Assembly: GCA_944472135.2 (NCBI GenBank)
Contig: OX235263.1
Location: 6,059,517-6,123,516, forward strand
Direction of reading: 5' to 3'
DNA: 64,000 nucleotides
From: Trichobilharzia regenti
Lineage: Eukaryota > Platyhelminthes > Trematoda > Strigeidida > Schistosomatidae
A program made the position numbers and the translations under genes. Of this stretch, positions 9,610 through 63,590 are shown one piece after another (the first letter of the stretch is position 1; every line of letters starts with the position of its first letter). The notes under the pieces are model-generated. The model did not search any database. It saw only the letters and a list, made by a program, of their open reading frames with translations, and was not told the DNA's origin.

Positions 9610-10292
9610 GAACCACCATTATTTAGAAAATCATTGAAAACCAGCGGAAAGCACTTGACACCTTGACGGTTGTTTCAGTGTACTCTGAGAATCTGTAACA
9701 ATGTGCCCCCTCCACCCAACCGACAGGAATCGAACCTTAGGCATTCAAGTTGCAGGATCAAGCCGGTTGACCATTTAGCCACTTGGTCCGGAATTCAATG
9801 ACCTAAGAATTTGAACTTTGTCAATACATGATGATATAGCTCTCTGCCTTCACCAATTCCTTCGGTGTCCACATTCACCTCATTGTGACAATGATAGATA
9901 CAAAACCAATATTTGAAAATTAATCTGATGCTCACTAGCAACTGGCCCTATTCAGACAGTTGACCTGGGGTTCTAATGGGAAGCCGTGACCAGTAGGGTA
10001 CAGCAGATCGAAGATGAGGCTGTAACTCATCGAAGAAGACATTGCGAAATGGTCGCTCTGTGTCGTGAATTGGCAGAAGTTACAATTCATGGGCCATTGA
10101 ATCGGTTCCCAGTGGCCAATGGTCTAAGAGCTCGCCTTGTAACCAGAAGGTCCTGGGTTCGAACCCCATCAGGTGGGTGCGTACTGATGAAGAGTCCCAA
10201 GCTGGGCTGACGAAAAAGCTGTCCAGTACTTCCAGGTTTTCCAGTGGTTCTCTAACTGATGTTAGCTCATGATGAAATCCTCCATGCAATGA
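9610..10292. repeat. Foldback repeat, copy 1 (tRNA-like boxes, hammerhead-like core)
   Basis: The right arm (+, about 9930-10292) is well preserved. It has an A-box region (ccaatggtctaagagc), a B box (gggttcgaaccc), then gtactgatgaagagtccc with gacgaaaa and ctgtccagtac, and ends ctaactgatgttagctcatg. The left arm (9610-9900) is a diverged inverted partner, with cgaatcgaacc and agccacttggtcc. The hammerhead core has A where C3 should be, and one stem is altered, so a working ribozyme is unlikely. Confidence 0.7.
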
Positions 10293-20040: not shown

Positions 20041-20632
20041 AAACTAAGTTACAGGATTTCACCATAAGCTGACATTTTAGTAAGAGAACCGCTGAAAACT
20101 ACCATGGTCTACTGGACAGCCAGCTGTTTCCTCCTAGTTTGGTTTTCCAATGATTCTCTAACCGATGTCAGTTCATGATGAAATTCTGTAACAGATCTAA
20201 TTAAATCCCTGTAAACCGACAACTGAATATAAAACTGATGCTCACTAGTAACTGTCCCTATTCAGGTAGGTAGTTGCCTGGGTTCTAGTGAGACGTCGTC
20301 ACAGGCAGTGGGTGATTCAAGTCGTGTGTGAGCACAAACACTGGCCATCGATGATATTAGCTAGTAGAATTCGCGCCATATCGTGAACTAACTGATAGAA
20401 TTTGGAATTCATGGACTGGCCACTAGATTGGGTCCTAATGGTTGAATGGTCTATGTGCTCGCCTTGTAACTAAAACGTCCTTGAGTTCGAACCTCAGTGG
20501 GATGGGTGATTACTGATGAAGACTCTTGAATTAGAATAATCAGGCAGCTGTTTCGTCCTTCCAATGATTCCCTAAACGATGTCAACTCATGTTGAAATCC
20601 TGTAACCAATCAAATTAAATCCTTGTTAACCA
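20041..20632. repeat. Foldback repeat, copy 2 (degenerate)
   Basis: The right arm (+, 20250-20632) has gaatggtctatgtgctcgcc, the B box gagttcgaacctc, and the terminal text atgtcaactcatg. Another terminal segment (aaccgatgtcagttcatgatg, 20155-20185) lies just before it. The hammerhead-like part near 20510-20560 is disrupted. Confidence 0.6.
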
Positions 20633-24985: not shown

Positions 24986-25490
24986 GAAGTAAACTGGTGG
25001 ATGTTGACTTGAAATAGAATCCAAAATGCACATTTCGTCCTATTCGAGACTCGTTAGTTGGATGTACATCGTGCGTCGTCGGCACACTGGTAGAATGCTC
25101 GCCAACCACGCCTCATGTGGTCCAGGGTTCGATCCACGGCTGACGCACCCTTGAACCTCGCTAAGGTATTAATAAGACTGGTAAAGAGTGAAGGTTTGGT
25201 ATGAGGTCAGCCACCCTATCCGGTATAAAATAAATACCAGTGGTACCGGAACTTCAAGCCTCTAGCTTGAAGCCCTATCTTTCCGCGGAGAACGTAAAGA
25301 ATAAAAAATAAGTGGATGTACTGCATTCTTCGATAGATGATGATATTCCCATCGAGGCTCCAAAATAGTACCCATAGTTTCAAACGTCGAATTCTTATCC
25401 ACTAGACGACTAGGGTCATGAGAGCCACCTCCTGTGTAACGGACTCAAGTGCTAGCCACCATCCACCGATTTACTTACTAATTATTCAAG
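24986..25490 (-). mobile_element. Sm-alpha type repeat whose hammerhead is split by a SINE
   Basis: Minus-strand Sm-alpha text lies on both sides of a SINE (25068-25312). The ribozyme side reads GACGAAATGTGCA with core CTAACGA instead of CTGACGA, so G5 is changed. The tRNA-like head side lies at 25321-25450. The 9-mer tggatgtac at 25059-25067 and 25313-25321 is the target duplication of the SINE. Confidence 0.8.
25068..25312 (+). mobile_element. tRNA-headed SINE with RTE-derived body, inserted in Sm-alpha
   Basis: The head gtgcgtcgtcggcacactgg with B box ggttcgatccac is followed by a body with gaggtcagccaccctatccg and a 3' end agccctatctttccgcgg. The parts run in the same order as in the SINEs at 14856 and 58122. 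A 9-bp target duplication flanks it. Confidence 0.82.
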
Positions 25491-26168
25491 TGCTGGTTTG
25501 CAGAGATTTGATTTTATTGGTTACGGGATTTCATCGTGAACTGATATGGGTTAGAGGAGGACCATTGGAAAACTAACCAGAGAGTGCTGGATAGCTGTTT
25601 CGTCAGCATAGTTCTTGGGTCTCTTCAGAAGAACCCCTTGACTGGCATGGTTCGAACCCAGAACTTTTCAGTCACTGGGAGCTGATCCAATGACCAATGC
25701 ATGAATTCCACCTTCTGCCAATTCATGATATGGCGCAATCACTAGCGTATATCATCGATGGTGAATATTTCTCTTCACACTTGAGCTTCTCAACCCCACT
25801 GGTTACCACATGAGTTACCCGGCTTCTAGTGAGAAGTCATATGTAGTGGGATAAGGAAGCTCAAATGTGCAGATAAATACTTGTCATCGATGACACTGGT
25901 TTGTGGTCGCGGTGAGATCAAGAATTAGCAATAGGTTGGAATTCATGCATAGGTCATTAGATCAGGTCCCAGTGACTGAAGGGTTTATGAGCCCGACTTG
26001 TCACCAACCGCAAGGTCCTGGGTTCGAACACTGCCAGTGGGTGGGTACTTCTGAAGAGCCCCAAGGACTATGCTGACGATACAGCTATCCAGCACTCCCT
26101 GGTCAGTTCTCTAATAGTCCTCCTCTAACCGATATCAGTTCACGATGACATTGCGTAACCAATCAAAT
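25491..26168. repeat. Foldback repeat, copy 3 (both arms present)
   Basis: Left arm (-) is about 25500-25835 and right arm (+) about 25850-26165, head to head. Both carry the B box (ggttcgaac) and the hammerhead-like segment. On the minus strand the left arm has an intact core CTGAAGA, GACGAAACAGCTATC and cagcac, but stem I no longer pairs well. The right arm has CTGAAGA with GATA in place of GAAA. Confidence 0.8.
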
Positions 26169-26384
26169 CAAATTTAATTGGTGGATGGCGACAAGCAGTG
26201 GAATCCAGGATGCGCATTTCGTCCTATTTGGGACTCGTCATCTGAATGTACCTGCATTTCTCAGTGATTGATGATGTTTCAAGCGAGGTTCGAACCCAGT
26301 GACCATAGTTTCAAACGTCAAAGCTTTATCCACTGGAACACTTGGGCAACGAGAGCCACCTCTTGTGCAACGGGACATATTAAT
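26169..26384 (-). mobile_element. Sm-alpha type repeat with tRNA-like head
   Basis: On the minus strand the order is a tRNA-like head (B box gggttcgaacctc), a short spacer, then the hammerhead at about 26200-26250. It is followed by the tail ggattccactgc. The order of parts matches the Sm-alpha SINE-like family of schistosomes. Confidence 0.85.
26200..26250 (-). ncRNA. Hammerhead ribozyme of Sm-alpha type, core mutated
   Basis: Stem II (GTCC/GGAC) and GAAA are intact, and the palindromic stem III TGCGCA and AUC triplet are present. The core reads ATGACGA, with A in place of the conserved C3, which normally pairs with G8. This copy is probably inactive. Confidence 0.75.
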
Positions 26385-26820
26385 TTAATTTAATTTGAGA
26401 TTTTCCTGTCGACTGATTAGACCGAAGAGCTCGGTCTCAGGTTGAAATATTGGCTTCTTGTTCAGATGCTTCGACAATGTCTGGGCATTTAATTAGTATT
26501 TAATTGATAGATGGTGACTAGCAGTGGAATCCAGGATGTGCATTTCGTTTGAAACTACGGGCACTGGGTTCGAGCCTCGGTAGGAATATCATCACTCACT
26601 GAAAAATGCAGGCACATCCAGATGACGAGTCCCAAATAGGACGAAATGCCAATCCAGGATTCCACTGTTTGTCACCTCCACCAATTAAATTCTAATTAAA
26701 TGCCCAGACATCGTCGAAGCATCTGCACAAGAAGCCAACGTGTTAACCTGTGATCGAGCACTCCGATCCAATCAATCGACGAGGAAGTCTAAAATTCAAT
26801 TAAATCAAATCAAGTCTATG
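26385..26820. mobile_element. Sm-alpha inverted pair
   Basis: About 26385-26565 is Sm-alpha on the minus strand with a deletion inside the ribozyme (catttcgtttgaaactacgg). About 26566-26820 is Sm-alpha on the plus strand: B box gggttcgagcctc, hammerhead at 26614-26662, and the tail aaatgcccagacatcgtcg. The tails face outward, giving a palindrome like the one at 54503-54842. Confidence 0.8.
26614..26662 (+). ncRNA. Hammerhead ribozyme of Sm-alpha type, core mutated
   Basis: The layout is cacatccag, core atgacga (C3 replaced by A), gtcccaaataggac, gaaa, tgcca, atc, then caggatt. A base is lost after the cleavage site, so stem I is weakened. This is a recognisable but probably dead ribozyme. 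Confidence 0.75.
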
Positions 26821-28909: not shown

Positions 28910-29262
28910 ATATATTGAAGCTCCAACCAATCAAGTGTGAGGATGGAGTTCCCACGGATGACACTGGTTAGTCCCAGTCCCGCTAAATCACGAATTGTAG
29001 AAGTTAGAATTCATGAGCCGGCCGTTGAATCGGGTTCCAATGGCTGAATGGTATACGAGATAGTTTACCTTGTTACCGGAAGGTCCTGGGTTTGAACCAT
29101 GGTGGTGGGTGCGTAATGCCGATGATTCCCAAACTAGGATGAAATAGCTACTTGTCTGATACTTCCTAGATTTCAATGGTTCCCTAACTAATATCAACTC
29201 GTGGTCAAACTCGTAAAAACAAATCCAATCCTTGTAAACCGACTCTTGAAGATTACTAAACC
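28910..29262 (+). repeat. Foldback repeat, copy 5 (single arm)
   Basis: One plus-strand arm has ggctgaatggtatacgagat, ggtcctgggtttgaacc, then the hammerhead-like cgatgattcccaaactagga, gaaa and the terminal ccctaactaatatcaac. Stem II and the core are altered. This subtype shares atggtatacgag with the copy at 37.3 kb. Confidence 0.65.
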
Positions 29263-29689
29263 AAATAACAAAGGTAAAAGTACATCTACTAAAGTATCGA
29301 AACAAAGGTTACCAAAGAAGAAGGTTTAGTGTGATGACGAATTGTCGCTTTGAACACATAAAGGCGACTTAAATTCCCAACTGCCAGCTAGGCTTTAACA
29401 AACTTTTGGATACGCCCCAAACACACTTTATGGATAAGTTAAAAAGACGTGTACATATCAATTGTATGTACTCCATAAGATGTTTTGCACTAGAGGAGCT
29501 ACGTCTACTGTTCTCACTATTATTGGGTTCTGGTGACTCTATTTACTTCTGGAGCTATTTAGGAATATGCTCTGAAGACAGCCCTTACTTGTAGAGATCG
29601 ACGAGTCCTCCCTATATATGTGTTTCCATAAGTAAATTCAAATAGAGTTACTCTTTTTGGCAATATCATTCTCAAATTTTCTTAGAACC
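29263..29689. other. No gene recognised
   Basis: A 62-codon frame at 29406-29594 has no recognisable domain. It leads into the PLE that starts near 29690. Confidence 0.4.
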
Positions 29690-30950
29690 AATCAGAAATC
29701 AAGTTTCCTCTCAGTCACTCGGAGACTCCTTCGACTTTATCAATTCCAGTGAAAATGTCAATGTTCCTAATTAAACTGTTTTCTCATTAGACGTTCCACT
29801 AACTGAAACAATTTGCTACACATGAGAAAATATTGATTCAAAGGGGATAAACATTGGTATATCCACTGACTGTTTGAGGGAACTTTTATTGAGACGTATT
29901 CTAAATGTTCATTTTTCTTTCAATAACGAAATATATATGGAGAAAGGTTTGGTATAACTATGGGCTCACCATTGAGCCCATTGCTTGCGCATTTTTTCAC
30001 TCCAAAACTAGAAAACACACACCTAAAGAAAATGATTGACAGCTTCGGGTTTTACAAGAGATACGTAGACGATACTTTCACTATCCCCAATAACAAGGAG
30101 AATTTGGAAGGTATTTACCGCCATCTTGGGATTCAGTTCACATTAGAGAGGGGGTCCGACATAAAATATCTTTTCTGGAAGTTTAGTTAACAAGACGGAA
30201 CACCAAAAAGATCCATCTATTGAAAGCCGACCTGCAGTGGACAACTCACTAACTTTCATAGCTTAGTGTCCCTATATACAAAACGAAACCTGATCCGTTC
30301 ACTGAGCCATAGAATTCTCACAATTTACAGTCCTGACACTGTGGAAGAAGAGCTTTGAAATGAAATCTCCTTGAAAACGCCTGCATTGAGCGTTTAATCA
30401 CAACATTATGAAGCCTAAACCACCGAAACTGTCCACACTTTCTGCTCCCAGATGACTTCTGTACCTGGAGACTCATCATCAGAAATACCAAGAATCCGCC
30501 TGTCCCGCTCACTGAAGAAAACCTTCTTCTCAACTGAACTTCGACAAACTTTCTCTACAAAACTAATGATTTTGATGAACATGAAGAATAGGCTACCCCC
30601 CTGACTGGCATCACCAGTGTGCATCTATGAATTCAACTGCTCGTGTGAAGTTAGATGTGTCGACCGTACCCAGCGTTCGCTGTCCAAACGAATCATCGAA
30701 CACTTACCTCATGGTTTTATGAAGAGGAAGGATCCCTCCGTAGCTTCGTCCTGGAACACCTGTTCGAAGAATCTGGACACTAAGTTAACCCACAAACCAA
30801 CTTCAGAGTCATCCAGAGAATAGGCGGGAACCCTGCTAAAAGAGTACGACAAATCAAACTTCTTCGAACCACAGAAGCAATAGCAATTCACATGTTAAAT
30901 CCTGAACTCTGCATACAAAAAAGTTTGTCAATTCAATAAATCTCCAGTTG
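29690..30950 (+). mobile_element. PLE-F, reverse transcriptase to GIY-YIG
   Basis: The order of parts is: a degraded LDVPLTETIC-type segment near 29790; the palm motif GSPLSPLLAHFF with catalytic YKRYVDDTFT (29960-30190); a broken linker; the GIY-YIG core CIYEFNCSCEVRCVDRTQRS (30617 onward), where the second core motif YIG has become CVD; and the C-terminus LLRTTEAIAIHMLNPELC ending near 30940. Several stops and frameshifts mean no product is expected. Confidence 0.88.
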
Positions 30951-30984: not shown

Positions 30985-31192
30985 TGTTTTAGATCCAGTC
31001 CCATTGGCTTAATGGTCTACGAGCTAGCTCACCGTGTAACCAGAAGGTCTGGGTTCAGACCACACAGGTGGAAGCGTAGTGATGAAGATTCCCAAACTAG
31101 GCTGACGAAACATCTGTCCAGTACTCCCAGGTATTCTAGTGGTTCTCTAACTGATGTCAGCTCATGATGAAATCCTCCATCCAATCTTGTTT
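30985..31192 (+). repeat. Foldback repeat, copy 6 (single arm)
   Basis: One plus-strand arm contains ttaatggtctacgagc, gggttcagaccaca, the hammerhead-like part at about 31075-31125 (gtgatgaagattcccaaact, gacgaaacatctgtcc, agtactcc) and the terminal ctaactgatgtcagctcatg. The core has GTGATGA-type changes, so activity is doubtful. Confidence 0.75.
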
Positions 31193-36965: not shown

Positions 36966-37455
36966 ACTCTCAGTGGCCAGGTAAACTAGCTCGTATACCA
37001 TTCAGAGCCACTGGAACCCGATTCAACGGCCGGCTCATGAATTCTAACTACTTCTAACAATTCATGATTTAGCGCGACCCCAACCATTGTCGTAGGTGGG
37101 ATATCCATCCTCACACGTGACATCTGGATGAACCTCATTGGTCACAGTTTCTCACTAGAACTGTCTCCAGGAAACTCCATCCTGTGGCAATTCACTAACA
37201 AGCATCAGATTAATTTTCTATAGTTTGGTTTGTAGGGGTTAGAAGTTAGACTTCATGAGCTGGCCATTGAATCGTATCCCAATGGTTGAACGGTATACGA
37301 GCTTGCTGACTTGTAACCGGAAGGTCCTGGGTTCGAATCCTGACAGTCGGTGTGTACTGCCAATGATTCACAAACTAGGATGAAATAGCTGGCTGTCCAG
37401 TACTCCTAACAGGTTTTCCAATGGTTCTCTAACTGATATCAATCCATGGTCAAAT
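36966..37455. repeat. Foldback repeat, copy 7 (both arms, 28.9-kb subtype)
   Basis: Left arm (-) 36966-37195 (gctcgtataccattcagagcc). Right arm (+) 37240-37455 (ggttgaacggtatacgagc, gggttcgaatcc, then the hammerhead-like region, ctgtccagtactcc and ctctaactgatatcaa). The core reads CCAATGA, so the ribozyme is not consensus. Confidence 0.7.
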
Positions 37456-37459
37456 CGTA

Positions 37460-37920
37460 AAAAAGCGAAACTACTCCTTACAAACCAAAGCATAGAAAAT
37501 TTTCTTCGCTATTTATGTCGTTTTCTTTTCTTATGGCTTAGGGAATACTCAAAGTAACTCGACTAATTCAATCTCTTATACGTAAGTGTAACTTATACAC
37601 TGAGTGTGATTCGTTAATGAGCGACATTCAACATCCTCAATGAGATGAGCATTTCGATAACAATGTCGAACATGAAACTGACAAGCTTGTTAACTAAAAT
37701 TCCAAGCCAGAAAAGAACATTCTAAACATTCTAATCTAGAGTAATACACATATATATTCTCTACGGAGTCAAGCGACTGTAAAGTGCTACCTTGACGTAA
37801 TAGTCAGGCCAACTGAGCTAAAATTGCTGGAAGCGATGTTCCTACCGGTCCTATCATCCCAGAAAAGTCCTTTTGATAGTGGTTAGACTACAAGCACTTG
37901 ACATCATAATGTAGGGTTCA
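37460..37920. other. No gene recognised
   Basis: AT-rich, unannotated sequence between two foldback copies. Confidence 0.45.
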
Positions 37921-38318
37921 AATTTAAACACAGATCGATATCAAATGGAGAACTATTGAAAAATCAACCAGGGAGTAGTGGACAGCTGTTTCTTCAGTCT
38001 AGTTTACGACTTTCCGGGTACAAGGTACACTTGTAGACCAATTGTAGCCACTGAAACACGAATCAATGACCAATGTATGAATTCCAACTCTCACCCAATT
38101 CGTGATTTCAGCACGAACACAAGCCAGTGGTTGAATAGTCAACCAGCCTGCCTTGTAACCAGAAGGCCACAGCTTAGAACCCTAGCGGTGAATGTGTAGT
38201 GCCAATGAATCCCAAGCACTAGGCTGATGAAACAGCTGTCTAGTACTCACTCTCTGGTTCGCTAACTGATATCAATCCGTAGTGGAAAACTTGAAACACA
38301 TCAAATTTCTACAAACTA
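37921..38318. repeat. Foldback repeat, copy 8 (both arms, shortened)
   Basis: Left arm (-) about 37940-38100, with ggacagctgtttcttcagtc and accaatgtatgaattcc. Right arm (+) about 38110-38318, with ttgtaaccagaaggccacag, gatgaaacagctgtctag and cgctaactgatatcaatcc. Both hammerhead-like segments are degraded. Confidence 0.65.
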
Positions 38319-39330
38319 ACTCTTCCATGAGATGACAACCAGCACGTTGGCTCTACCACCTTCCGCCAAATTTAAGATGATAGTACAGGACTAGACTACA
38401 TTGACTCCTAGTTTAGAAATAGGGAGTGAAGAGGTAGAGCACGTTGATTGCTTCATTTATTTGGAAAGTTGCATCAGCCACAACGGGTGGACCTCTGACG
38501 AAATCTCAGTAGGGATACAGAGGGCTAGTTTCGCATATGCCAGTTCGAGCCGTCTCTGGTGTAGACGAGATATCCGGCTGGCTATCAAAAGGGCGGGTGT
38601 ACAGCACAGCAGTCGGCTCCGTCCTCCTTTAATACTGTGAGACCTGGCCATTGAGAGTGATAGACATGAAAAGATTAACTGTCTTTGATCATAGGTGCCT
38701 ACATTCTATCTCCCGTGTGAAGTGGTATAATTGGGTGAGCAATATTGAGGTTAGGCATTGGTCGAGTTTTAGGTAAGGAGGGGATATCAATCGACGAGGC
38801 CGTGAAATCACACCGAATGAGATGGTTAGGACACATGCTACGGATGCCCAGTCATTGCCTTCCTCGACAGTGGGCAATGTTAGCTGTCATAGGGTCAGAC
38901 TGGAAAGAGCTAGCGGTGGTCAAACCGAAACACGGCTTCACCAGTCAATGAAATCCAAAACACTTAGTTTAAGCCAGCCAGCCACGTAGGAAGGTGTAGA
39001 CTTCCTGACTAGTTGGGGTCTTCGGGACGGTAAAAATCAATGGTTGGAAAAAGACAATTTGTGATATGGCTCAAAGTGATCGTTCTCGATGGCTAGTGAA
39101 GATGCACCCACTCCTTGTGACTTATGATTTCCAATGAAACTTTATTGTTCTTCGTTATTACTATTCCTTTGTCTCACACCTCTGTTTACTGTCTCTATTA
39201 TGCATTTCTTCTACTTCTCGTGCTTTGTTTCCTACATGGAGTTTGGAGACCTGAACTGGTGCACATCGGTGGAAAGTTCTGTTTCGAAAACAGACAAACA
39301 GACAGTTGTCCCAATCAGGCTCTGCAATCA
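38319..39330 (+). mobile_element. LINE-2 3' fragment, longest copy
   Basis: Begins at the TLTPSLEIGSEEVEHVDCF region (38401). It continues FIYLESCISHNGWTSDEIS, QRASFAYASS and GRVLGKEGISIDEAVKSHRM, then WLGHMLRMPSHCLPRQWAML and AVIGSDWKELA, then the degraded C-terminus and 3' UTR. The catalytic half is absent. The SLEIGSEEV..YLGS block is the region after the palm in many non-LTR elements. Confidence 0.8.
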
Positions 39331-50931: not shown

Positions 50932-53900
50932 ACCCATGGACCTTGAGCGCGCTTTTCGACTATTACGCTACATTTTGGTCATAAATAAAATCTCTTATTA
51001 CTCTAAAATTTTATGCAAAGTGTTTGCGGAAATTATCACAATTATTAACCTTTCGAACACTGAATCCAAAAAATACAATCTTATTGACAGATAATACACA
51101 TAACTCACTGTTTGGATTTGTGGAATTTTTAAACATAAACACATCTATAATTGTATATATTGTTGGATTTATATGTTCAAGTTGCTCCAAGTCAGTGAGT
51201 TTATGGTTAAGATATCATTTTAGTTAACTGTACTGAACTATATTGCATGTTGTCTTATTGTATAGTTGTCGTCGCTTTTTGCCCTTTTTTCTGTGAACTG
51301 TTTCCTTTGTTGATGTTGTTCTCATTGTTTGTCCGTTATTTTCTGATTTTGAGGGGAGCAACCCAAAAAGTTGCTTCTCTCTAAACTTTTACTTAATGTA
51401 ATCATTCTTTTCTCAGGCGTGAGGCTAGCAACCCCACCCTGTAAACAAAAATTGCTACAGAAACTTCAGTATGTGAACCTCCTTGCACCAAAAGAAAAAG
51501 TCTGTGTAGGAACATGGAACGTCCGAACTATGTACGAGACTGGAAAGCTGCCCAGATCGCCAACGAGATGAAAAGATACGGAATACAAGTGCTGGGAATA
51601 TGTGAGAGCAGATGGAATGGGAGTGGACTCACCAAATTGTCAACAGGTGAGTCAGTGATCTACTCCGGTCACCCAGAAGATAACCACACGCACACCGAGG
51701 GCGTGGCTATCATGATGTCACCAACGGCAACGAAAGCCCTGATACAATGGGAGGCGATTTCGTCCAGGATAATGACCGCCAGGTTCAACTCCAAAGGAAG
51801 GAAAGTGTCAATCATACAATGTTATGCACCCACAAACAACGCAGACCTCGAGAAGAAAGAAGAATTCTACAGGCAACTACAGGCAACAATGGACAATACT
51901 CCAGCTGGCGACATGAAAATACTAATGGGAGACATGAACGCCAAACTGGGACCAGACAATACGGGAAGGGAACTCATCATGGGTAGAGAAGCTCTAGGAG
52001 AAATGAATGAAAACGGAGAACTCTTCGCCGACTTCTGCGCCTTCAACGAACTGGTGATTGGTGGCAGTGTATACAAGCACAAAGATATCCACAAGGCTAC
52101 ATGGGTGTCACCAGACGGGCAAACCAAAAACCAAATCGACTTCATCTCAATCTCAAGGAAGTGGAGGCGCAGCCTACTGGACACAAAAGCAAGAAGAGGA
52201 GCAGACGTTGGCTCAGACCACTATCTCGTACAAGGGACAATCCAAATCAAATTAAAAGCTTTCAGGGAATCAGGAGCTGCAGATAGACCACAAGCCAAGT
52301 TCAACACTCAAAAGCTGAAGGACCAGGCTACAAAGGACATCTTCATTGCAAGCATAAAGGACAAAGCCGAGACACAAATCAACACTAGCGAAGAGGTCGG
52401 CGTTGAAAAGCACTGGAACAACTTGAAAACGGTGTGGAGCCAAACCTGCATAGAAATTCTAGGCAGAAAAAAGAGACAGGACAAACAGTGGCTCACTACG
52501 GACACTTGGAAACTAATAGAAGAGAGAAGGACAGTGAAGCAAAAGATTATCCAGTGCACGGACGAGCAACAAAAACAGGAGCTGAATGCAAGCTACAATA
52601 CACTGAACAAAAGAGTGAAGAAAAGTGCCAGGGAAGACAAAAGAAAATATTATGAAACCATGGCAAACGAAGCAGAACAAGCTGCAGGCAAAGGAGACCT
52701 CGCCACACTCTACCAAACAACTAGGAACCTTTCGGGCAAACGTTCGACACAGATTAAGCCAATAAAGGACGACAATGGAAAGTCAATCACCAAAGAGGTG
52801 GAACAGAGAAAGCACTGGGTTGAACACTTCAAAAGACTTCTAAATCGTCCGCCACCTACAACACGTCCAGCAATACCAACAACGGAAGCAGAACTACCAG
52901 TGAACACTGACCCCCCGACGAAATCAGAAGTCCTGAATGCAATCAAGATGCTTAAAACTGGGAAAACACCGGGACCAGATGGAATCCCAGCAGAGGCTTT
53001 GAAAATAGACCCAGAGACAACAGCGGACTTGATGACACCACTACTGGAGAAGGTGTGGAAAGAGGGCAAAGTACCCGAGGATTGGAAGAACAGTTACTTA
53101 TTCAAACTTCCAAAGAAAGGAGACTTAAGTCAATGTAAAAACTGGCGTGGAATTATGCTTCTGTCCATTCCAAGCAAGATACTAAGTCGCATCATCCTGG
53201 AGAGAATCAAACAAGCCCTAGATGAAAAACTTCGTCCGGAACAGGCTGGATTCAGGAGAAACAAATCATGTATTGATCAAATCGCCACTCTACGGATCAT
53301 CATTGAACAAAGCTTGGAATGGCAGTCACCTCTCTATCTCAACTTCATCGACTTTGAAAAGGCCTTCGACAGCGTCGATCGAGAGGTCATTTGGAAACTA
53401 CTTCGCTACTACGGGGTCCCATCGACAATTATACACCTCATCCAACAGTTATACGACAATGCTGCATGCCAAGTAATCCACAACGGGAAACTTACGGAAG
53501 CCTTCGAAGTGAGGACGGGAGTGAGGCAAGGCTGTCTACTATCACCAATGATCTTCCTGATTGCAATTGATTGGATAATGCGACAGACAACGGCAACCAA
53601 CGAGGGAACAGGCATAAAATGGACTGACACAAAAGACTTGGAGGATCTGGATTTCGCCGATGATATATGTCTGATTTCCCATAAACTGGAAGATATGCAA
53701 GTGAAAAGTAACAAGTTGGCAGAAGAAGCATCAAAGATAGGACTTCACGTGAACATAGATAAAACAGAGATGATGAAGATTCCTAGCCAACATCAACAGC
53801 AACAACAACAACAGACAACAATAAGCATAAATGGGAAGAACCTGAAAGAAACAACCTCCTTCACCTACCTGGGAAGCATCGTCTCAACTACAGGCGGAAC

Positions 53901-54465
53901 TGACGAGGACATCAAAGCCAGAATCGGAAAAGCAAGACAAGCTTTCATTACTCTCAAATCTGTGTGGAGGTCAACAGCAATCAGCATCAAAAATAAGATC
54001 CGGATTTTCAACTCCAATGTGAAGTCAGTGCTACTATACGGATCAGAGACTTGGCGAGTCATAAAGAGCATCTCAAACAAACTTCAAACCTTCATTAACA
54101 ACTGTCTCCGCTCAATACTCAAGATCAGATGGCCAGAAAAGATCAGCAACAGGGATCTCTGGGAGCGAACCAATCAGGAACCGATTGTGAAACAAATAGG
54201 CAGAAAGAAATGGAGATGGATTGGCCATACGCTGAGGAAACCATCAAGTGACATCACTAGACAAGCCCTCGAGTGGAACCCGAAAGGGAGGCGGCGAGTT
54301 GGTCGTCCAAGGGTGACTTGGAGGAGGTCATGCGAGGAGGAGATGAAAGCATGTGGACAGACCTGGAGCAGGGTGAAAAAGTTGTCAGAAAACCGAAGTC
54401 AATGGAGGTGCGCAGCTGAAGCCCTATGTTCCTCTAGGAACTAAAGGATACAATAATAATAATAA
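50932..54465 (+). mobile_element. Nearly full-length RTE-clade LINE (SR2/SjR2-like)
   Basis: Bounded by the 10-bp duplication taataccatg, this 3.5-kb element has a leader of about 580 bp, one long frame with endonuclease and reverse transcriptase, a very short 3' UTR (ctaaaggatacaat) and an AAT microsatellite end, all typical of RTE elements. Leader bases 51420-51470 are shared with the SINE bodies. Four other copies in the window (27.9, 34.9, 60.7 kb and the 0.1-kb deletion derivative) match it closely or recognisably. It interrupts PLE-A. A one-base loss near 51548 breaks the start of the protein, so this copy is probably not autonomous as it stands. Confidence 0.92.
51514..54444 (+). CDS. 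RTE endonuclease/reverse transcriptase, 976 codons
   Basis: Domains in order: an APE-type endonuclease (about residues 1-250) with the metal/catalytic landmarks GICESRWNG, YAPT, MGDMNAKLG (about 136-144), DFISISRKWRR and GSDHYLV (about 233); a linker; and a reverse transcriptase (about 480-770) with TPGPDGIPAEALK, KNWRGIMLLS, motif A FIDFEKAFDSV (about 611), GVRQGCLLSPMIF and the catalytic box DFADDICLI (about 714). A poly-Gln run (about 760) and the usual C-terminus [29 protein letters not shown] follow. The first dozen residues come from the wrong frame. The normal start (GTWNVRTMYETGK) is in the frame of 51371-51571, and one base is missing near 51548. The deleted copy at 88-1245 retains an extra base there. 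Confidence 0.93.
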   Translation: MERPNYVRDWKAAQIANEMKRYGIQVLGICESRWNGSGLTKLSTGESVIYSGHPEDNHTHTEGVAIMMSPTATKALIQWEAISSRIMTARFNSKGRKVSIIQCYAPTNNADLEKKEEFYRQLQATMDNTPAGDMKILMGDMNAKLGPDNTGRELIMGREALGEMNENGELFADFCAFNELVIGGSVYKHKDIHKATWVSPDGQTKNQIDFISISRKWRRSLLDTKARRGADVGSDHYLVQGTIQIKLKAFRESGAADRPQAKFNTQKLKDQATKDIFIASIKDKAETQINTSEEVGVEKHWNNLKTVWSQTCIEILGRKKRQDKQWLTTDTWKLIEERRTVKQKIIQCTDEQQKQELNASYNTLNKRVKKSAREDKRKYYETMANEAEQAAGKGDLATLYQTTRNLSGKRSTQIKPIKDDNGKSITKEVEQRKHWVEHFKRLLNRPPPTTRPAIPTTEAELPVNTDPPTKSEVLNAIKMLKTGKTPGPDGIPAEALKIDPETTADLMTPLLEKVWKEGKVPEDWKNSYLFKLPKKGDLSQCKNWRGIMLLSIPSKILSRIILERIKQALDEKLRPEQAGFRRNKSCIDQIATLRIIIEQSLEWQSPLYLNFIDFEKAFDSVDREVIWKLLRYYGVPSTIIHLIQQLYDNAACQVIHNGKLTEAFEVRTGVRQGCLLSPMIFLIAIDWIMRQTTATNEGTGIKWTDTKDLEDLDFADDICLISHKLEDMQVKSNKLAEEASKIGLHVNIDKTEMMKIPSQHQQQQQQQTTISINGKNLKETTSFTYLGSIVSTTGGTDEDIKARIGKARQAFITLKSVWRSTAISIKNKIRIFNSNVKSVLLYGSETWRVIKSISNKLQTFINNCLRSILKIRWPEKISNRDLWERTNQEPIVKQIGRKKWRWIGHTLRKPSSDITRQALEWNPKGRRRVGRPRVTWRRSCEEEMKACGQTWSRVKKLSENRSQWRCAAEALCSSRN

Positions 54466-54502: not shown

Positions 54503-54842
54503 TACAATCGGTGGATGGTGGTGACTAGCAGTGTGGAATCCAGGATAACGCGCATTTCGTCCTATTTGGGACTCGTCAGCTGGATGTACCTGCATTTCTC
54601 AGTGAGTGATGATGTTCCCGCCGAGGCTCGAACCCAGTACCCATAGTTTCAAACGCCAAAGCGTTATCAAGTAGACCAAATAGGACGAAATGCGCATCCT
54701 GGATTCCACTGCTAGCTACCATCCACCAATTGTATACTAATTAAATGCCCAGACATCGTCGAGGCATCTGCACAAGAAGCCGACATGTCAACCTGAGACC
54801 GATCGGTCCAATCCATCGACGGGAAAATCAAAATTCAATTCA
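54503..54842. mobile_element. Sm-alpha insertion with inverted 5' part, 14-bp target duplication
   Basis: The 14-mer ataattcataagta at 54489-54502 and 54843-54856 brackets one insertion. Its right half (about 54670-54842) is plus-strand Sm-alpha: the 3' half of the hammerhead (aggacgaaatgcgc) and the tail aaatgcccagacatcgtcg. Its left half (about 54503-54669) is minus-strand Sm-alpha with a complete hammerhead and tRNA-like head (B box ggttcgagcctc on the minus strand). One duplication around both halves indicates a single event with 5' inversion, as twin priming by a LINE would give. Confidence 0.85.
54535..54590 (-). ncRNA. Hammerhead ribozyme, Sm-alpha type, core intact
   Basis: Minus strand: stem I ATCCAG pairs with CTGGAT, core CTGACGA, stem II GTCC/GGAC, GAAA, then a stem III region TGCGCGTT and triplet ATC. 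Predicted cleavage between 54544 and 54543. It is the only Sm-alpha copy in this window with an unaltered core. Known for the family: these ribozymes self-cleave. An extra few bases in stem III relative to the other copies may alter activity. Confidence 0.85.
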
Positions 54843-55815: not shown

Positions 55816-56139
55816 TTTATTTATTTTGTTTATTTAGTTATTCTATGTACCTTGCTCTTATTATTACGATTATTATTATTACTATCACTGTTATCACTCT
55901 GAATTGTTTCCGTTTGTCCCAATAGTCATTCTAAATCCAAAATTATTAATTTTCATTTTTACAATATTGAATTCTATCTTATCTAATTTCACAGGGTGTT
56001 ATGTAACATTTTATATTCGCCTACTAATCTATAATTATGTACCCCTTTCCAACATCTATACACCTTATGAATTATTATTTTATATATGACATTAATTGTT
56101 CTGCTACTTGACATTTAACCATGATTATAATTGTATGGA
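55816..56139 (+). other. PLE 3' UTR, AT-rich
   Basis: Resembles the PLE tail inserted at 2801-3230 (tattgaattctatctta, cctactaatctataatt). No gene. Confidence 0.55.
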
Positions 56140-56600
56140 GGATTTCACCATGAGCTGACATCAGTTAGAGAACTACTGGAATACCAGGGAGTACTGGACA
56201 GCTGTTTCGTCAGTCTAGTTTGGGAGTCTTCAGCAGTACGGACCCACCTGGCGGGGTTCGAACCAAGGACCTTCTAATCACAAGACGAGCTCGTAGACCA
56301 TTCAGCCACTAGGACCAGATCCAATGGTTCTTGAAATCTAACTTCTGCCAATTCACGACACAGAGCGACCACTTCGTAATGTCTTCTTCGATGAGTTACT
56401 GCCTCATCTTCAACCTGCTGTACCCTACTGGTCACGACTTCCCACTAGAACCCAGGCTAACTGCCTGAATACGGCCAGTTGCTAGCGAAAACAGCTGTCC
56501 AGTACTCCTGGCTGGTTTTGCAGTGGTTCTTTTTCTAACTGATGTCAGCTCATGATGAAATCCTCCATGCAATCAAACAAAAATCCCTACAAAACAAATA
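56140..56600. repeat. Foldback repeat, copy 9
   Basis: A nearly full left arm (-) 56143-56475 is followed by a short right arm (+) 56480-56600 holding only the outer end (ctgtccagtactcctgg ... ctgatgtcagctcatgatg). The left arm has the B box (ggttcgaacc) and, on the minus strand, gtactg, core CTGAAGA, GACGAAACAGCTGTC and cagtac (56191-56239). Core, GAAA, stem I and palindromic stem III are intact. The first base pair of stem II is lost (ctccc instead of gtccc). Confidence 0.82.
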
Positions 56601-56629
56601 CTTAAAGAAAAGCAAATGTCCAACGATTG

Positions 56630-57129: not shown

Positions 57130-57345
57130 AAGTATTGTTTTCAGTGGAACATTGGAGTTCAAGCAAAAGCTTTAAGTTTCGGTACCAGTGGTGTTTATTT
57201 GTACGGGATGCGATTGCCAGCCCCATGCTCAACCTTCCGTCTTTACCAGTTTTATTACTTACTGGCTTAACGAGGTTCGAGAGTGCATCGGCCAGGGGTC
57301 GAACCCCGGACGAGCATTCTACTCTCTGTGCCACCGACCCACCGA
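57130..57345 (-). mobile_element. Degenerate tRNA-headed SINE
   Basis: Minus-strand SINE. The head (complement of ggggtcgaaccccggacgag with ccaccgac) lies at 57285-57345, the body (gccagccccatgctcaacct) at 57215-57245, and the 3' end (tttcagtggaacattggag) at 57145. Same order as the SINE at 58122. Confidence 0.7.
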
Positions 57346-57565
57346 CGATGCTGGTGATTAGTCACAAAACAGATTAGTAGAATGTGCGGTAGGCAAAACT
57401 GATAAGCCAATTCAAGGATATGTAGAGGTATCAGGTAAGTGAGTGGCTGGTACAGCGTATGCATTTTAAAGAGGAGATAGTAAGACTGAAATAACTAATC
57501 TGTTATTTTCTACGTAAAATTATATCCGCTGCATATAATTCGCCATCAATTGTAACGATAACAAA
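57346..57565. other. No gene recognised
   Basis: AT-rich spacer between a SINE and a foldback copy. Confidence 0.4.
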
Positions 57566-57895
57566 TATTATGGAGGATTTCATCATGAGCTGACATCAGT
57601 TAGGGAACCACTGGAAAACCTGGGAGTACCGGACAACTGTTTCGTCCTAGTTTGGGATTCGTCATCAGTACGCACCCACCGGGGTTCAGGTCCTTGTGGT
57701 TCAATGGTCTACGAGCTAGCCCGCTGGCCTTGTAACCAGAAGGTCCAGGGCTCGAAACCCGGTGGGTGCGTACTGCTGAAGAGTCCCAAACTAGGACGAA
57801 ACAACTATCCAGTACTCCCTCCAGGTTTTCAAGTGGTTCTTTAACTGATGTCAGCTCATGATGAAATCCACCTCCAACCAATCAAACAAAATCCC
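57566..57895. repeat. Foldback repeat, copy 10 (compact, with the best hammerhead)
   Basis: Left arm (-) 57572-57685 is truncated and holds only the outer end with a hammerhead-like segment (core AUGACGA). Right arm (+) 57686-57890 holds a head with tggttcaatggtctacgagc, the box text gggctcgaaaccc (B box altered), the ribozyme at 57770-57815 and the terminal ttaactgatgtcagctcatg. The arms meet head to head near 57686. Confidence 0.82.
57770..57815 (+). ncRNA. Candidate hammerhead ribozyme in the foldback repeat
   Basis: Parts in order: GTACTG (57770-57775), core CTGAAGA (57776-57782), GTCC, loop CAAACTA, GGAC (57794-57797), GAAA (57798-57801), CAACT, triplet ATC (57807-57809), CAGTAC (57810-57815). 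Stem I pairs perfectly over 6 bp and stem II over 4 bp. All conserved core bases (CUGANGA, GAAA, NUH) are present. Stem III is weak: other copies have the 8-nt palindrome ACAGCTGT here, this one ACAACTAT. Predicted cleavage after 57809. Activity is inferred, not shown. Confidence 0.7.
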
Positions 57896-58105
57896 TACAA
57901 AACCAATACTTGAAAACAAATATCATATTTTATCATTGTAGTAAGGACCTGATGTGCAGAAATTATTATGAAAAGAATATTCTTCACATTCAAACTGACA
58001 CTAAGTCAAAGAATCGACTGTAAAAACTCATATTTGAATTCAACTCTTTCTTCTATCTGTTCACTTCACATGAATTATAATCACACATATACGCTCAGAT
58101 GGATA
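57896..58105. other. No gene recognised
   Basis: AT-rich spacer before a SINE. Confidence 0.4.
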
Positions 58106-58121
58106 TATATATATAATACAT

Positions 58122-58350
58122 GTGCGTCGGTGGCATAGCGGTTAGGACGCTCGCCGACCATGAACATGGTCCGGGGTTCGATCCCCGGCCGACGCAGTCC
58201 TTTACCTCACTTATCCAACAATAAGGCAGGTAGAGAGGAAAGGTTGGGCATGAGGCTAGCAACCCCATCCTGTAAAAATTAAGAATGCTACAGAAACTTA
58301 AAGCCTCTAGCTTGGAGCCCTATGTTCCACTGGGAACGTGAAGGATATAT
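58122..58350 (+). mobile_element. tRNA-headed SINE with RTE-derived body, best-preserved head
   Basis: Head 58124-58196: acceptor stem gcgtcgg/ccgacgc (7 of 7 pairs), A box tggcatagcggttagg, anticodon stem gacca/tggtc, T arm with B box ggttcgatccc. The body has gaggctagcaaccccatcct and gctacagaaactt, and ends agccctatgttccactggga. It sits in an AT repeat (atatatataatac on both sides), which is probably its target duplication but is hard to delimit. Confidence 0.9.
58124..58196 (+). promoter_or_regulatory. tRNA-like Pol III promoter region of the SINE
   Basis: 73 nt with cloverleaf potential and both internal promoter boxes in good condition. Position 33 of the anticodon loop is G instead of U, and the sequence is joined to the SINE body, so I read it as the SINE head rather than a tRNA gene. 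Confidence 0.75.
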
Positions 58351-58359
58351 ATATATATA

Positions 58360-59036
58360 ATACCAAAGGTATGCAGAATTTCTGCAACCTGTAAGGAGAC
58401 AATTAAGTACGCACTCGCTCCGTGACACTTTCCGGTTCATCAACTGCTTACAAAACATGAATGTATCTAACAAAATTATGCTGTCCTTCGACATTGAATC
58501 ACTTTTCACCAATGTCCCACTCACGGAAACGGTCTGCTTCATATGCAGATATATGGATGACAACCATCTCAATATTGGAATACCGACAACATATTTGAAA
58601 GAATTATTATTGAGATGTACTCTAAACGTCCAGTTCACATTCACCGACACCATCTACAGACAAAAAGATGATATTGCAATAGAATATCCGTTGGGTCCAC
58701 TACTATCAGATTGCTTCGTGGCAAGTCTCGAGAGAGGTCCACTAAAGCTGAGCATTGACAATTTGCGACTGTATAAAAGATACGTGGACGAAATTTTCAT
58801 TATTTGTAACAAAAGCAATGACCCCAATCTACTGCTGAAGACATTTAACTGTTGCCGCCATCCAGCAATAAGATTCAGTTTTGAAATGGAAAGCGAATCA
58901 AAAATTCCGTTTCTTGATGTGGAACTAATAAGAAGAGCTGATGGGAGCCTAATTTCGTATTATCTACTTTGTTCCTATGTGTATCCTGAGAAAAACTCAC
59001 TCATCAAACTATTAATTTTATTACATAACTTCTTTT
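58360..59036 (+). mobile_element. PLE reverse transcriptase fragment, one long frame
   Basis: The frame 58457-59036 encodes IMLSFDIESLFTNVPLTET, LKELLLRCTLNVQFTFTD, IYRQKDDIAIEYPLGPLLSD, the catalytic region LYKRYVDEIFIICNK and SKIPFLDVELIRRADGSL. The usual YVDDTF box reads YVDEIF, so the second aspartate is lost, and MGSPLGP has become EYPLGP. After about residue 170 the PLE text stops abruptly and AT-rich 3' sequence begins. Confidence 0.88.
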
Positions 59037-60189: not shown

Positions 60190-61690
60190 AAATAAGGATC
60201 AATATGACTAAGACTCGTCGATAACACCTTCGTGCTATACAAAACGAGACCTACACACAGCTCATTCTTGAAGAAACTGAACAATTAAACTCCCAGCATT
60301 CAGTTTATTTCGGAAATTGAGTTAGACACTGTTTAAAAGAGTTTAAACACATTGTAGCACTCCAGAGGTGAAAAGAATGGAAGAAAAATACCTACAAAGG
60401 GTCTTCAAAAAGAATTGATATCCCCCTCATAATTTCATCAAAAAGTGTTTAAAATCGAATTAGAACACCAACAAGGAATCATCATCAAAGATCAGAAGAA
60501 AATTCATCCTTACAACACACATGAAAAATATCTCTGAAATAACAGCTAGAATACTGAAACCGTTTGATATAGATATAGCACACAAGCCAGTCAAATCGCT
60601 TAATTCGATATTATGCAAACCAAAAGATCCAACAGAAAAAGGAGATAAAATTAATTATCATTATATCCTTTAATTCCTAGAGGAACATAGGGCTTCAGCC
60701 ACGCGTCTCCATTGCGTTCGGTTCTCTGCTAAAGTTTCCACCTGGTTCCAAGTCTACCCACATGCTTTCATCTCCTCTTCACATGGCCTCCTCCAAGTCA
60801 CCCCACCCTCTCACTGACGACCAACTCGCTACTTCCTTTCGGGTTCCACTCGAGCGATGGCTTGTCTAGTGATGTCACTTGATGGTTTCCTCAGCGTATG
60901 GCCAATCCATCTCCAATTCTTTCTGCATATTTGTTTCACAATCGGTTCCTGATTGGTTCGCTCCCAGAGATCCCTGTTTCTGATGTTTTCTGGCCATCTG
61001 ATCTTGAGTATTGAGCGGAGACATCTGTTAATGAAGGTCTGAAGTTTGTTTGAGATGCTTTTTATGACTCGCCAAGTCTCTGATCCGTATAGTAAGTAGC
61101 ACTGACTGACTCACATTGGAGTTGAAAATCCGGATCTTATTTTTGATGCTGAGTGTTGTTGACCTCCAAACAGATAAAATTAATACCATTTACAAAATAA
61201 ATTGTATGAACTGTAACACGCATTACATCGGCCAATGTGGGCGTCCCCTTCGAATCAGAATCCAAGGACACAAATCAGCCGTGAAAAGACACGATATATA
61301 TATTCTTTAGTATCAAGGCACATAAACAATTATGGACATTAGTTTGATTGCGATAATGTCGAAATCTTTAACAGAGGACAGACACCAAAAGTGCAGTCAG
61401 GGAATTCCTAGAAGCCTGGTACTCAAACAAATCAGCCAGTGATTAACAAACACGGTATTATAGACCAAATATACCAACTAATAAAAAGCAAATCGCTTGA
61501 CGAGAAAGTTTAAAATCCAAGTCAACAGAAAATGATCAATACATATGTAAAGATGGTTACCGGAAGACACAATTATATCACTCGTGAAAAATTTGAATCA
61601 TTTCACTTTATGATAAATATTGCGCTGAAAAGGAATGTTGTCCAGGAGGACGGACGACGAAAGCTCCGCAACTAAAACAAACAGCTCAGA
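60190..61690 (+). mobile_element. PLE-E copy interrupted by an RTE
   Basis: Outside the RTE (60656-61171): EEKYLQRVFKKN, a linker with ISEITARILKPFDIDIAHKP and SLNSILCKPKDPTEKGDK. The frame resumes exactly after the insertion as INTIYKINCMNCNTHYIGQ, CGRPLRIRIQGHKSAVKR (GIY-YIG core). The C-terminal region (EFLEAWYSN-like) follows to about 61560. The terminal motif tccgcaactaaaacaaacag lies near 61660-61680. Confidence 0.88.
60656..61171 (-). mobile_element. RTE 3' fragment inserted in PLE-E, 13-bp target duplication
   Basis: Minus-strand RTE 3' end (tttaattcctagaggaacat is the complement of the terminus) through the complement of the [16 protein letters not shown] and KIRIFNSN regions, 5'-truncated. 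The 13-mer agataaaattaat at 60643-60655 and 61172-61184 is its duplication. Here the 3' end carries little or no AAT repeat. Confidence 0.9.
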
Positions 61691-62540: not shown

Positions 62541-62589
62541 AACACACAAATATGATAAGCAATTTCACTATGTAAAGGCATACGGTTTT

Positions 62590-63246
62590 TCATGGAAGAT
62601 TTCATCATGAGCTGACATCAGTTAGAAAACCACTGTTTCGTCCTAGTTTGGGACTCTTCGTCTGTACGCACCCACTAGCACGGTTCGAATTTAGGACCTT
62701 CTGGTTACAAGACGAGCTAGCTAGTAGACCATTGAGCCACTGGGACCCAGTTCAATTGTCCTTGAATTCTAACTTCTGCCAATTCACGACATAGCGCGAC
62801 CACTAGCCAAAGTCTTCTTCGATGAGTTACAGCCTGTTCTTGAACCTGCTGTATGCTACTGGTCAGAGCTTCCTACTAGAACCCCAGGTTAACTGCGTGA
62901 AGAGGGCCAGTCGGTTGGAAGCCGTACCAGTAGGGTACAGCAGGTTGAAGATAAGGCAGTAACTCATCGAAGAAGACATTGAGAAGTGGTCGCGCTGTGT
63001 CGTGAATTGGCAGAAGTTAGAATTCAAGGACAATTGGACTGGGTCCCAGTGGCTCAATGATCTACTAGCTAGCTCGTCTTGTAACCAGAAGGTCCTGGGT
63101 TCGAACTGTGTCGGTGAGTGCGTATAGCTAAAGAGTCCCAAACTAGGACGAAACAGCTGTCCAGTACTCCTAGGTTTTCCAGTGGTTCTCTAACTGATCT
63201 GATTTCAGCTCATGATGAAATCCTCCATGCAATCAAACCAAGATCC
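62590..63246. repeat. Foldback repeat, copy 11 (longest palindrome)
   Basis: Left arm (-) 62592-62914 and right arm (+) 62920-63243 meet head to head, giving a near-perfect 650-bp palindrome. Each arm holds, from the centre outward: actcatcgaagaagac(att), tcgtgaattggcagaagtta, an A-box region (ctcaatgatctactagc), a B box (ggttcgaac), the hammerhead-like segment and ctaactgat...cagctcatgatg. The right ribozyme segment reads CTAAAGA with GAAA, palindromic stem III and GTC. The left one is partly deleted. Confidence 0.88.
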
Positions 63247-63590
63247 ACACAAAACCAATGCCTGAAAAAAACATACTGTTTTCATAATTTCATACGCTTA
63301 TCAAATCCAATAATTTACAGATGGCTTTTTTCATCTTTACCAACTGAGCAACTTGACAATGTAAAACTAATTATTTCATATTGAAGAACGATGATTAAGT
63401 TGTTTTATATAAGCTGAGTGGATTTTGTAAATTCTGGTCTAATAATACTACTTTGATAAAGCTATTAACATCAGCACTAAGTAGCGAAACGTCAGTGAAA
63501 ACAACAAATATCGTTTTCAAGAATCAGTTTCTAGGGTTTCTATTTGTTTGACATTAGATCACAGATTAATATCCGTTAGAGAACCATAGA
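63247..63590. other. No gene recognised
   Basis: AT-rich. The texts agtagcgaaacgtcagtg and tcacagattaatatccgtta do not match a family I can name. Confidence 0.4.

Follow-up and report, generated by a model that had tools for sequence, protein, structure and literature searches.

A stretch of 64,000 nucleotides of Trichobilharzia regenti DNA (the window) contains a repeat family whose hammerhead ribozyme is real rather than a chance likeness, presumably self-cleaving, and separate from the Sm-alpha-type hammerheads of the same genome; the foldback in which it lies would be a two-sided insertion of the type made by Penelope-like elements (PLEs). The family (the focal family) probably consists of non-coding, retrozyme-like or SINE-like retrotransposons with a length of about 394-400 nt, integrated by means of PLE machinery. 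Published work describes metazoan retrozymes as having no motif that reveals their partner and as seemingly devoid of promoters, and names PLEs only as candidates for the machinery spreading the thousands of hammerhead repeats in animal genomes (PMC7761336), or as a strong candidate for the partner of retrozymes (PMC7229834). The involvement of PLE machinery in hammerhead repeats has so far only been proposed, and the focal family is best read as a case of it. Its insertion ends, target site duplications (TSDs) and junctions match those of published PLEs, and the Sm-alpha-type copies do likewise in the three events in which both ends are seen. Double insertion in the Penelope manner points to the long-sought engine of the ribozyme-carrying elements of animals, and suggests a mode of PLE integration in which the two start sites are both used in a single event, each on its own side of the break.

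The unit of about 394-400 nt, as read from oriented window copies and from tandem arrays, contains an A box, a B box, a type I hammerhead and an AC-rich tail, with more conserved sequence (195 nt in the references) 5' of the A box. The sequence-only reading had treated the foldback as the structure of the family, a view that was not borne out: window copies read tRNA-like boxes, hammerhead and tail, whereas a foldback results from the insertion of two copies head to head. A BLAST query with the foldback (57541-57910) finds about 15 places in the window, some of them weak. Two non-coding tandem arrays consist of 13 units of 394 bp (locus L031) and of 12 complete and two partial 400-bp units (L051); neighbouring units are 99-100% alike within both arrays, and units are 95.3-95.9% alike between loci. 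One unit from each array serves as a reference (A and B), numbered (R) to finish at the long end. On this numbering the A box lies at R196, the B box at R241 and the hammerhead at R261-306 with cleavage after R300, while the short end falls at R364/367 and the long end at R394/400.

Both references carry the two boxes, which resemble those of a type 2 promoter of RNA polymerase III. In the focal copy, TGGTTCAATGG at 57697-57707 and GGCTCGAAACC at 57749-57759 (reference form GGTTCGAATCC), both on the plus strand, are read as the A and B boxes by their likeness to the box consensus. The earlier description of a tRNA-plus-hammerhead family is right as to the boxes but not as to a recognisable tRNA, since ARAGORN (bacterial settings) reports no tRNA gene in the window or at seven loci. 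Other tRNA-like repeats, with polymerase III-like boxes by eye and no hammerhead, occur in the window at 58128-58200 and 57300-57345 (minus). A run of four T residues is found at R314 in both references, just 3' of the hammerhead. It could stop polymerase III before the tail, in which case tail-bearing templates would require read-through.

The hammerhead in the right arm of the foldback (57770-57815, plus strand) reads GTACTG, CTGAAGA, GTCC, CAAACTA, GGAC, GAAA, CAACTA, TC and CAGTAC, and scores 43.2 bits against RF00163 in an Rfam scan of the window. Its complete core and perfect stems I and II, first noticed by inspection, were confirmed by Rfam. The palindromic stem III noted for the repeat is broken in this copy, with CAACTA in place of CAGCTG and pairs that Rfam flags as non-standard. 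Cleavage is predicted after 57809. The hammerhead of the opposite arm (57626-57671, minus strand) scores 42.0 bits; it has A at C3 and one broken stem II pair and is probably inactive. At the Rfam gathering threshold, Hammerhead_1 has seven matches in the window, four of the Sm-alpha type and three of the focal family, namely the two in the foldback and one at 63122-63167. Type I hammerheads of the focal family score up to 54.1 bits with RF00163. The intact motif was searched for with a pattern that covers the core, stems II and III and the 3' strand of stem I in 33 places (a single one left free) and allows a loop of 4-9 nt; it has 3603 exact matches (1808 + 1795) in the 954-Mb, 548-contig genome and none in the reversed control. 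These matches, together with an E value of 1e-7 in the window, rule out a chance origin. When 91 nt of an intact unit are folded thermodynamically, the z-score is -0.65, which gives no added support.

The focal insertion (57570-57914) is a head-to-head pair of two 5'-truncated arms of the approximately 400-nt element, with the short end on the left and the long end on the right. The left arm (57570-57687, minus strand) finishes at the short end and the right arm (57683-57914, plus strand) at the long end (..CCAATACTTGAA). Both sides carry the 9-bp TSD AACAAATAT, at 57560-57568 and 57915-57923 (plus strand). Two further head-to-head events in the window, at 56130-56606 and at 62588-63266 (the latter with the third focal-family hammerhead), have a short left end and a long right end, and no TSD of 8 bp was found for them. 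An older event at 20048-20615 is short/short without a TSD of 8 bp, and another at 25485-26169 has one untyped end. The remaining mapped copies, all on the plus strand, are single copies with short ends at 9918-10290 (with A at C3) and 30989-31186, an older divergent copy with a long end at 28957-29250, and older copies with long ends at 37241-37488 and 38124-38324. Next to the focal insertion, 58361-59035 (plus strand) reads, by motifs found by eye, as a decayed PLE-type reverse transcriptase, and a decayed fragment at 61176-61292 (plus strand) looks by eye like a GIY-YIG endonuclease.

The same arrangement is frequent in the genome. The mapped set comprises the window and 75 loci (L001-L090, from which L010-L022 were removed as array duplicates and L008 and L029 as overlapping); L001-L070 were picked by the intact pattern and all lie in the first 22 Mb of contig C1, and L071-L090 were picked by DNA similarity to a window copy. 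A head-to-head pair consists of a minus arm followed by a plus arm, with the 3' ends outward and 5' truncation at any point. There are 63 such events, of which 17 have an untyped end and were dropped. An end was typed as short if it fell at most 14 nt ahead of the short site or 9 nt past it, and as long within 12 nt of the long site, which lies 30-33 nt beyond. Among the 46 events typed at both ends, 41 are short/long, three are long/long and two are short/short, where free pairing of ends would give 23 short/long (p 2e-8). The 41 include two L056 events that duplicate L050, and the focal event, whose overlapping arms made a manual entry necessary. Of the 46 typed events, 32 have TSDs of at least 8 bp, compared with 2.4% in a null built from re-paired flanks. 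All 32 are short/long events, whereas none of the five exceptions carries such a TSD; a few of the 32 duplications sit in AT-rich simple sequence (e.g., L024, L028, L046 and L068). Nine short/long events, including the two in the window, have no TSD of at least 8 bp. At the junction between arms, an overlap of at least 2 nt occurs in 71% of 38 short/long events versus 16% in simulations, the former being an upper estimate as it derives from overlap of BLAST alignments. Single arms number 67 (36 with long, 16 with short and 15 with other ends), a count that includes the two focal arms. By eye, four of 19 flanks of seemingly single copies (those of L030, L032, L048 and L062) contain a small inverted piece of tail, and these four were later scored as head-to-head. 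The large number of single arms, and the choice of most loci for an intact hammerhead in 22 Mb of one chromosome, weigh against the PLE-type reading.

The arms also bear on the template that was copied. Their 5' ends are scattered across the whole unit, and the cleavage site is read through in 167 of 179 arms (a figure raised by the choice of loci), so the RNA copied there was uncut or rejoined. The idea that arms end at the hammerhead cleavage site was rejected: only one arm in 179 starts at R299-303, and there is therefore no sign of cut linear RNA as the usual template. The two arms of an event may stem from one RNA or from two. Of rare variants, 14% are common to both members in 32 head-to-head pairs, 40% in 16 tandem pairs and 1.2% in 2080 random pairs. 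Arms with C and arms with A at C3 are mixed in 8 of 25 head-to-head events, which is also expected if A arises there during copying.

PLEs with hammerheads are said to have been described by Cervera in 2014 and by Lunse in 2017. The PLE protein of PAc cleaves and extends both strands and uses two adjacent internal start sites in an AC-rich stem loop, the interval between them forming a 'tail' of 30-40 bp; hammerhead mutants of PAc insert in vitro all the same (PMC11167929). In Adineta the typical PLE insert shows an adjacent inverted pLTR, a TSD of 9 bp and, at one of its two inverted copies, a tail of 31 bp; the pLTR and tail extend 12 and 22 codons into the open frame (PMC3846280). The foldback is read as an insertion moved by PLEs because its short and long ends and its TSDs match this published signature. 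From the hammerhead cut to the short and long ends of the focal family are 64 and 94 nt, and the distance from hammerhead to start computed from the published figures for PAc is similar, at 85-92 nt (PMC11167929).

PLE reverse transcriptases are abundant in the genome: all 150 candidates scored, out of 33807 first-look candidates, are matches. Many of the PLE copies listed have open frames of 815 aa, some of them spaced 3072 bp apart (C4:104482588-104489310, C334:3345-13139 and C1:18197000-18203722), and head-to-head pairs occur elsewhere. In one resident head-to-head pair on contig C8, the predicted outer ends (L104 and L105) are 32 nt apart and a TA repeat hides any TSD; this one event, the only one viewed, fits the short/long signature. 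The 815-aa PLE has no match to the focal-family tail beyond 13 nt (E 0.13), well inside its frame, and no Rfam match at E<=1. A second tandem element (L098, C1:146433700-146437100) likewise has neither a match to the tail nor an Rfam match at E<=1. It has many copies with a period of 2691 bp, and one piece of it abuts the focal-family copy at window position 29250. In these two tandem elements, then, no PLE with the focal-family tail or with a hammerhead was found, which counts against the PLE-type reading. Among the matches listed from open-licence PMC papers there was no demonstrated PLE partner of a hammerhead repeat.

A cycle can be proposed in which tandem copies would be transcribed, possibly from the internal A and B boxes, and the type I hammerhead would cut the transcript into unit RNAs that may be circularised. 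A PLE protein would bind the RNA near the hammerhead and the AC-rich tail and make a staggered double-strand cut in the target, offset by about 8-15 nt. Reverse transcription would then be primed from both broken ends; on each side it would begin at either of two internal start sites that lie 30-33 nt from each other, as read from the insertion ends. The two cDNAs would be joined head to head, mostly via microhomology of 2-3 nt, to judge from the junctions, and the product would be a foldback. Where an arm spans the hammerhead, the template would have been uncut or rejoined at the time of copying.

The promoter-like and ribozyme parts of the focal family resemble those of Sm-alpha, which has a tRNA-like promoter. 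Sm-alpha and Sj-alpha are reportedly SINE-like elements of schistosomes, in work attributed to Ferbeyre (1998) and Laha (2000). Four window hammerheads (26203-26247 minus, 54538-54585 minus, 26616-26660 and 25019-25063 minus; Rfam) are presumably of the Sm-alpha type. Both families have a type I hammerhead and a near-identical stem-loop II, but they differ in stem I, and the foldback query has no BLAST match at E<=1e-3 to the four window sites, the copies with which the comparison was made. Both are abundant: with C3 unspecified, a pattern for the Sm-alpha type matches the genome 4030 times. The proposal that the genome has, besides the Sm-alpha type, a second family combining tRNA-like boxes with a hammerhead is thus supported. 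No such second family in flukes was found among the matches listed from open-licence PMC papers. Sm-alpha and Sj-alpha themselves are documented as SINE-like schistosome elements with a hammerhead (PMC2770079, PMC8490949). Four Sm-alpha-type loci (L100-L103) were chosen for closely spaced minus and plus matches. Three of the four show, by eye, the pattern of the focal family, with one short and one long end and TSDs of 12-15 bp; the interval between the ends is about 115-120 nt, compared with 30-33 nt in the focal family. The fourth continues as a tandem, so that only part of its ends can be seen. Since Sm-alpha-type loci show these ends and duplications, the PLE-type mechanism of insertion seems to serve both hammerhead families.

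Among known systems, the animal non-LTR retrozymes (Cervera and de la Pena 2020, PMC7229834, PMC7761336) resemble the focal family in their type I hammerhead, non-coding nature, reported range of unit sizes, tandem copies and TSDs, which are longer than 4 bp there and reach at least 8 bp here in 32 of the 46 typed events. Animal retrozymes are expressed as unit-length RNA, both linear and circular, and the focal family may be so too. It differs in its A and B boxes and in its PLE-type insertion ends. Hammerhead PLEs share head-to-head inserts with a tail on one arm, TSDs and an AC-rich tail (PMC11167929, PMC3846280), as well as the position of the hammerhead 5' of the start sites (PMC11167929). 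Unlike them, the focal family is non-coding, has polymerase III-like boxes and carries a type I hammerhead that is complete, in contrast to the minimal ones reported for PLEs (PMC7761336).

It is unlikely that the hammerhead is a functionless relic and that the tail alone matters for PLE-driven copying. That copies span the cleavage site, that PAc hammerhead mutants insert in vitro (PMC11167929) and that the fold z-score is only -0.65 would all fit such a relic. Conservation points both ways. References A and B differ at one of the 46 hammerhead positions, and R236-322 has 2 differences in 87 positions, compared with 16 in 150 in the rest of R116-352 (p 0.02). The single hammerhead difference is at N7, which may be any base. 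The 3603 exact intact motifs likewise argue against a relic. Young arms were defined as those at least 88% alike to a reference, with one intact arm removed per locus chosen for it and L031, L051, L056, L074, L081 and L083 left out. The exact motif is present in 16 of these 54. With C3 set aside, core sites show mutations in 2.2% of cases and flanks in 3.1%, against the idea of a relic, whereas the hammerhead as a whole is at 4.2%, in its favour; the latter value is due to C3, which is not C in 23 of the 54 arms (19 A, 2 T and 2 gaps) and is the most variable site of R200-351. In 73 arms without the exact motif, a set that excludes intact arms, the core is less conserved than the flanks (89.8% versus 92.5%), as a relic would be.

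The loss of C3 is also evident genome-wide. A 35-mer with C3 and N7 free and the rest fixed has 5004 matches, and the pattern with C3 fixed and G5, N7 and G8 free has 3261, so at least 1743 motifs lack C3, a further point for a relic. The sequence-only reading had included C3 and G5 in the family core. For C3 this holds for the majority but not for all copies: the first 100 matches listed, with a 13-row array counted once, have C in 62 of 88 places, A in 25, G in one and T in none. G5 is retained, being changed in only 2 of 76 places listed, and G8 is changed in 2 of 76 (two arrays counted once each). In the Sm-alpha-type family the C3 base among 100 matches listed is C in 75, A in 20, G in 3 and T in 2. 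In the window, A at C3 is seen at 57626-57671 minus, 9918-10290, 26203-26247 minus and 26616-26660. In both families, then, between about a fifth and a third of the hammerheads that are perfect elsewhere have A instead of C3. These replacements show no visible clustering, which counts against a relic. Descent of the A-bearing copies from a single lineage was rejected, as their nearest neighbour has A in 4% of cases compared with 17.5% in shuffles (17 such arms of 92, in a set where many C-bearing arms were picked for being intact). No other alignment column is linked to the A beyond chance (best p 0.02 of some 230). The reverse transcriptase may misread C3 in a site-specific manner, C3 may be modified, or there may be several hidden source copies with A.

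A hammerhead with A at this position is expected from hammerhead biochemistry to be inactive. A tentative and rather doubtful reading is that copying itself damages the ribozyme, newly turning C3 into A in something like a fifth to a third of the copies made, in two families of one genome that are unrelated in sequence, that such copies are dead ends, and that a cutting hammerhead is required of source copies because C3 remains in the majority through subfamily turnover. If true, this would be a natural demonstration that self-cleavage is required in the life cycle of animal ribozyme elements. The C3 anomaly renders the need for self-cleavage testable.

It is quite unlikely that the unit is the pseudo-LTR of an unseen autonomous PLE, with the dispersed copies being 5'-truncated solo pseudo-LTRs and not an independent non-coding family. 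The window-type tail does read open by eye (ATG TCA GCT CAT GAT GAA ATC CTC CAT GCA ATC AAA ...), for about 12 codons to the short end and about 22 to the long, which is the geometry of PLE pLTRs (PMC3846280), and the spacing from hammerhead to start is as in PAc. However, the frame of reference B is closed by TAA at codon 6, the 815-aa PLE has a different upstream region, and the units of the two arrays (13 of 394 bp, 12 complete ones of 400 bp) follow one another too closely to leave room for a PLE frame. The focal family as itself an autonomous PLE, with a reverse transcriptase and GIY-YIG frame, was rejected since units of 394 and 400 bp are too short. One place (C1:80371081, L099) spans both the copy and the PLE pieces found at window 28957-30350, but in the majority of the 43 matches listed the two occur as distinct repeats, and the window segment was rejected as a PLE with a focal-family pseudo-LTR. 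Locus L068 was rejected in that role as well; it looks like an insertion into a PLE, with a low-complexity TSD (AATTAATTAATT).

Movement of a SINE by a LINE (e.g., the RTE-like elements found here), with the inversions arising via twin priming, is highly unlikely. LINE-type reverse transcriptases with DUF6451 are present in the window and at the loci, and tRNA-like boxes are typical of SINEs. Twin priming leaves one outer end internal, however, whereas here both outer ends are 3' ends of the element, one short and one long, with TSDs. A foldback DNA transposon or MITE is scarcely credible and was rejected as contradicted by the loci seen, for although inverted repeats do lie between TSDs, the 5' ends of the arms are scattered over the unit, the outer ends are two different sites, arm lengths are unequal, and single arms and tandems occur.

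The window also contains, at 51445-54441, an open frame of 999 aa that encodes a reverse transcriptase of LINE type together with DUF6451 and matches endonucleases weakly. The older focal-family copies at 10.1, 25.6, 26.0, 31.0, 38.1 and 56.2 kb have, by eye, two extra bases in stem II (..CTGACGAAAC for ..ACGAAAC) and are possibly an older form of the hammerhead.
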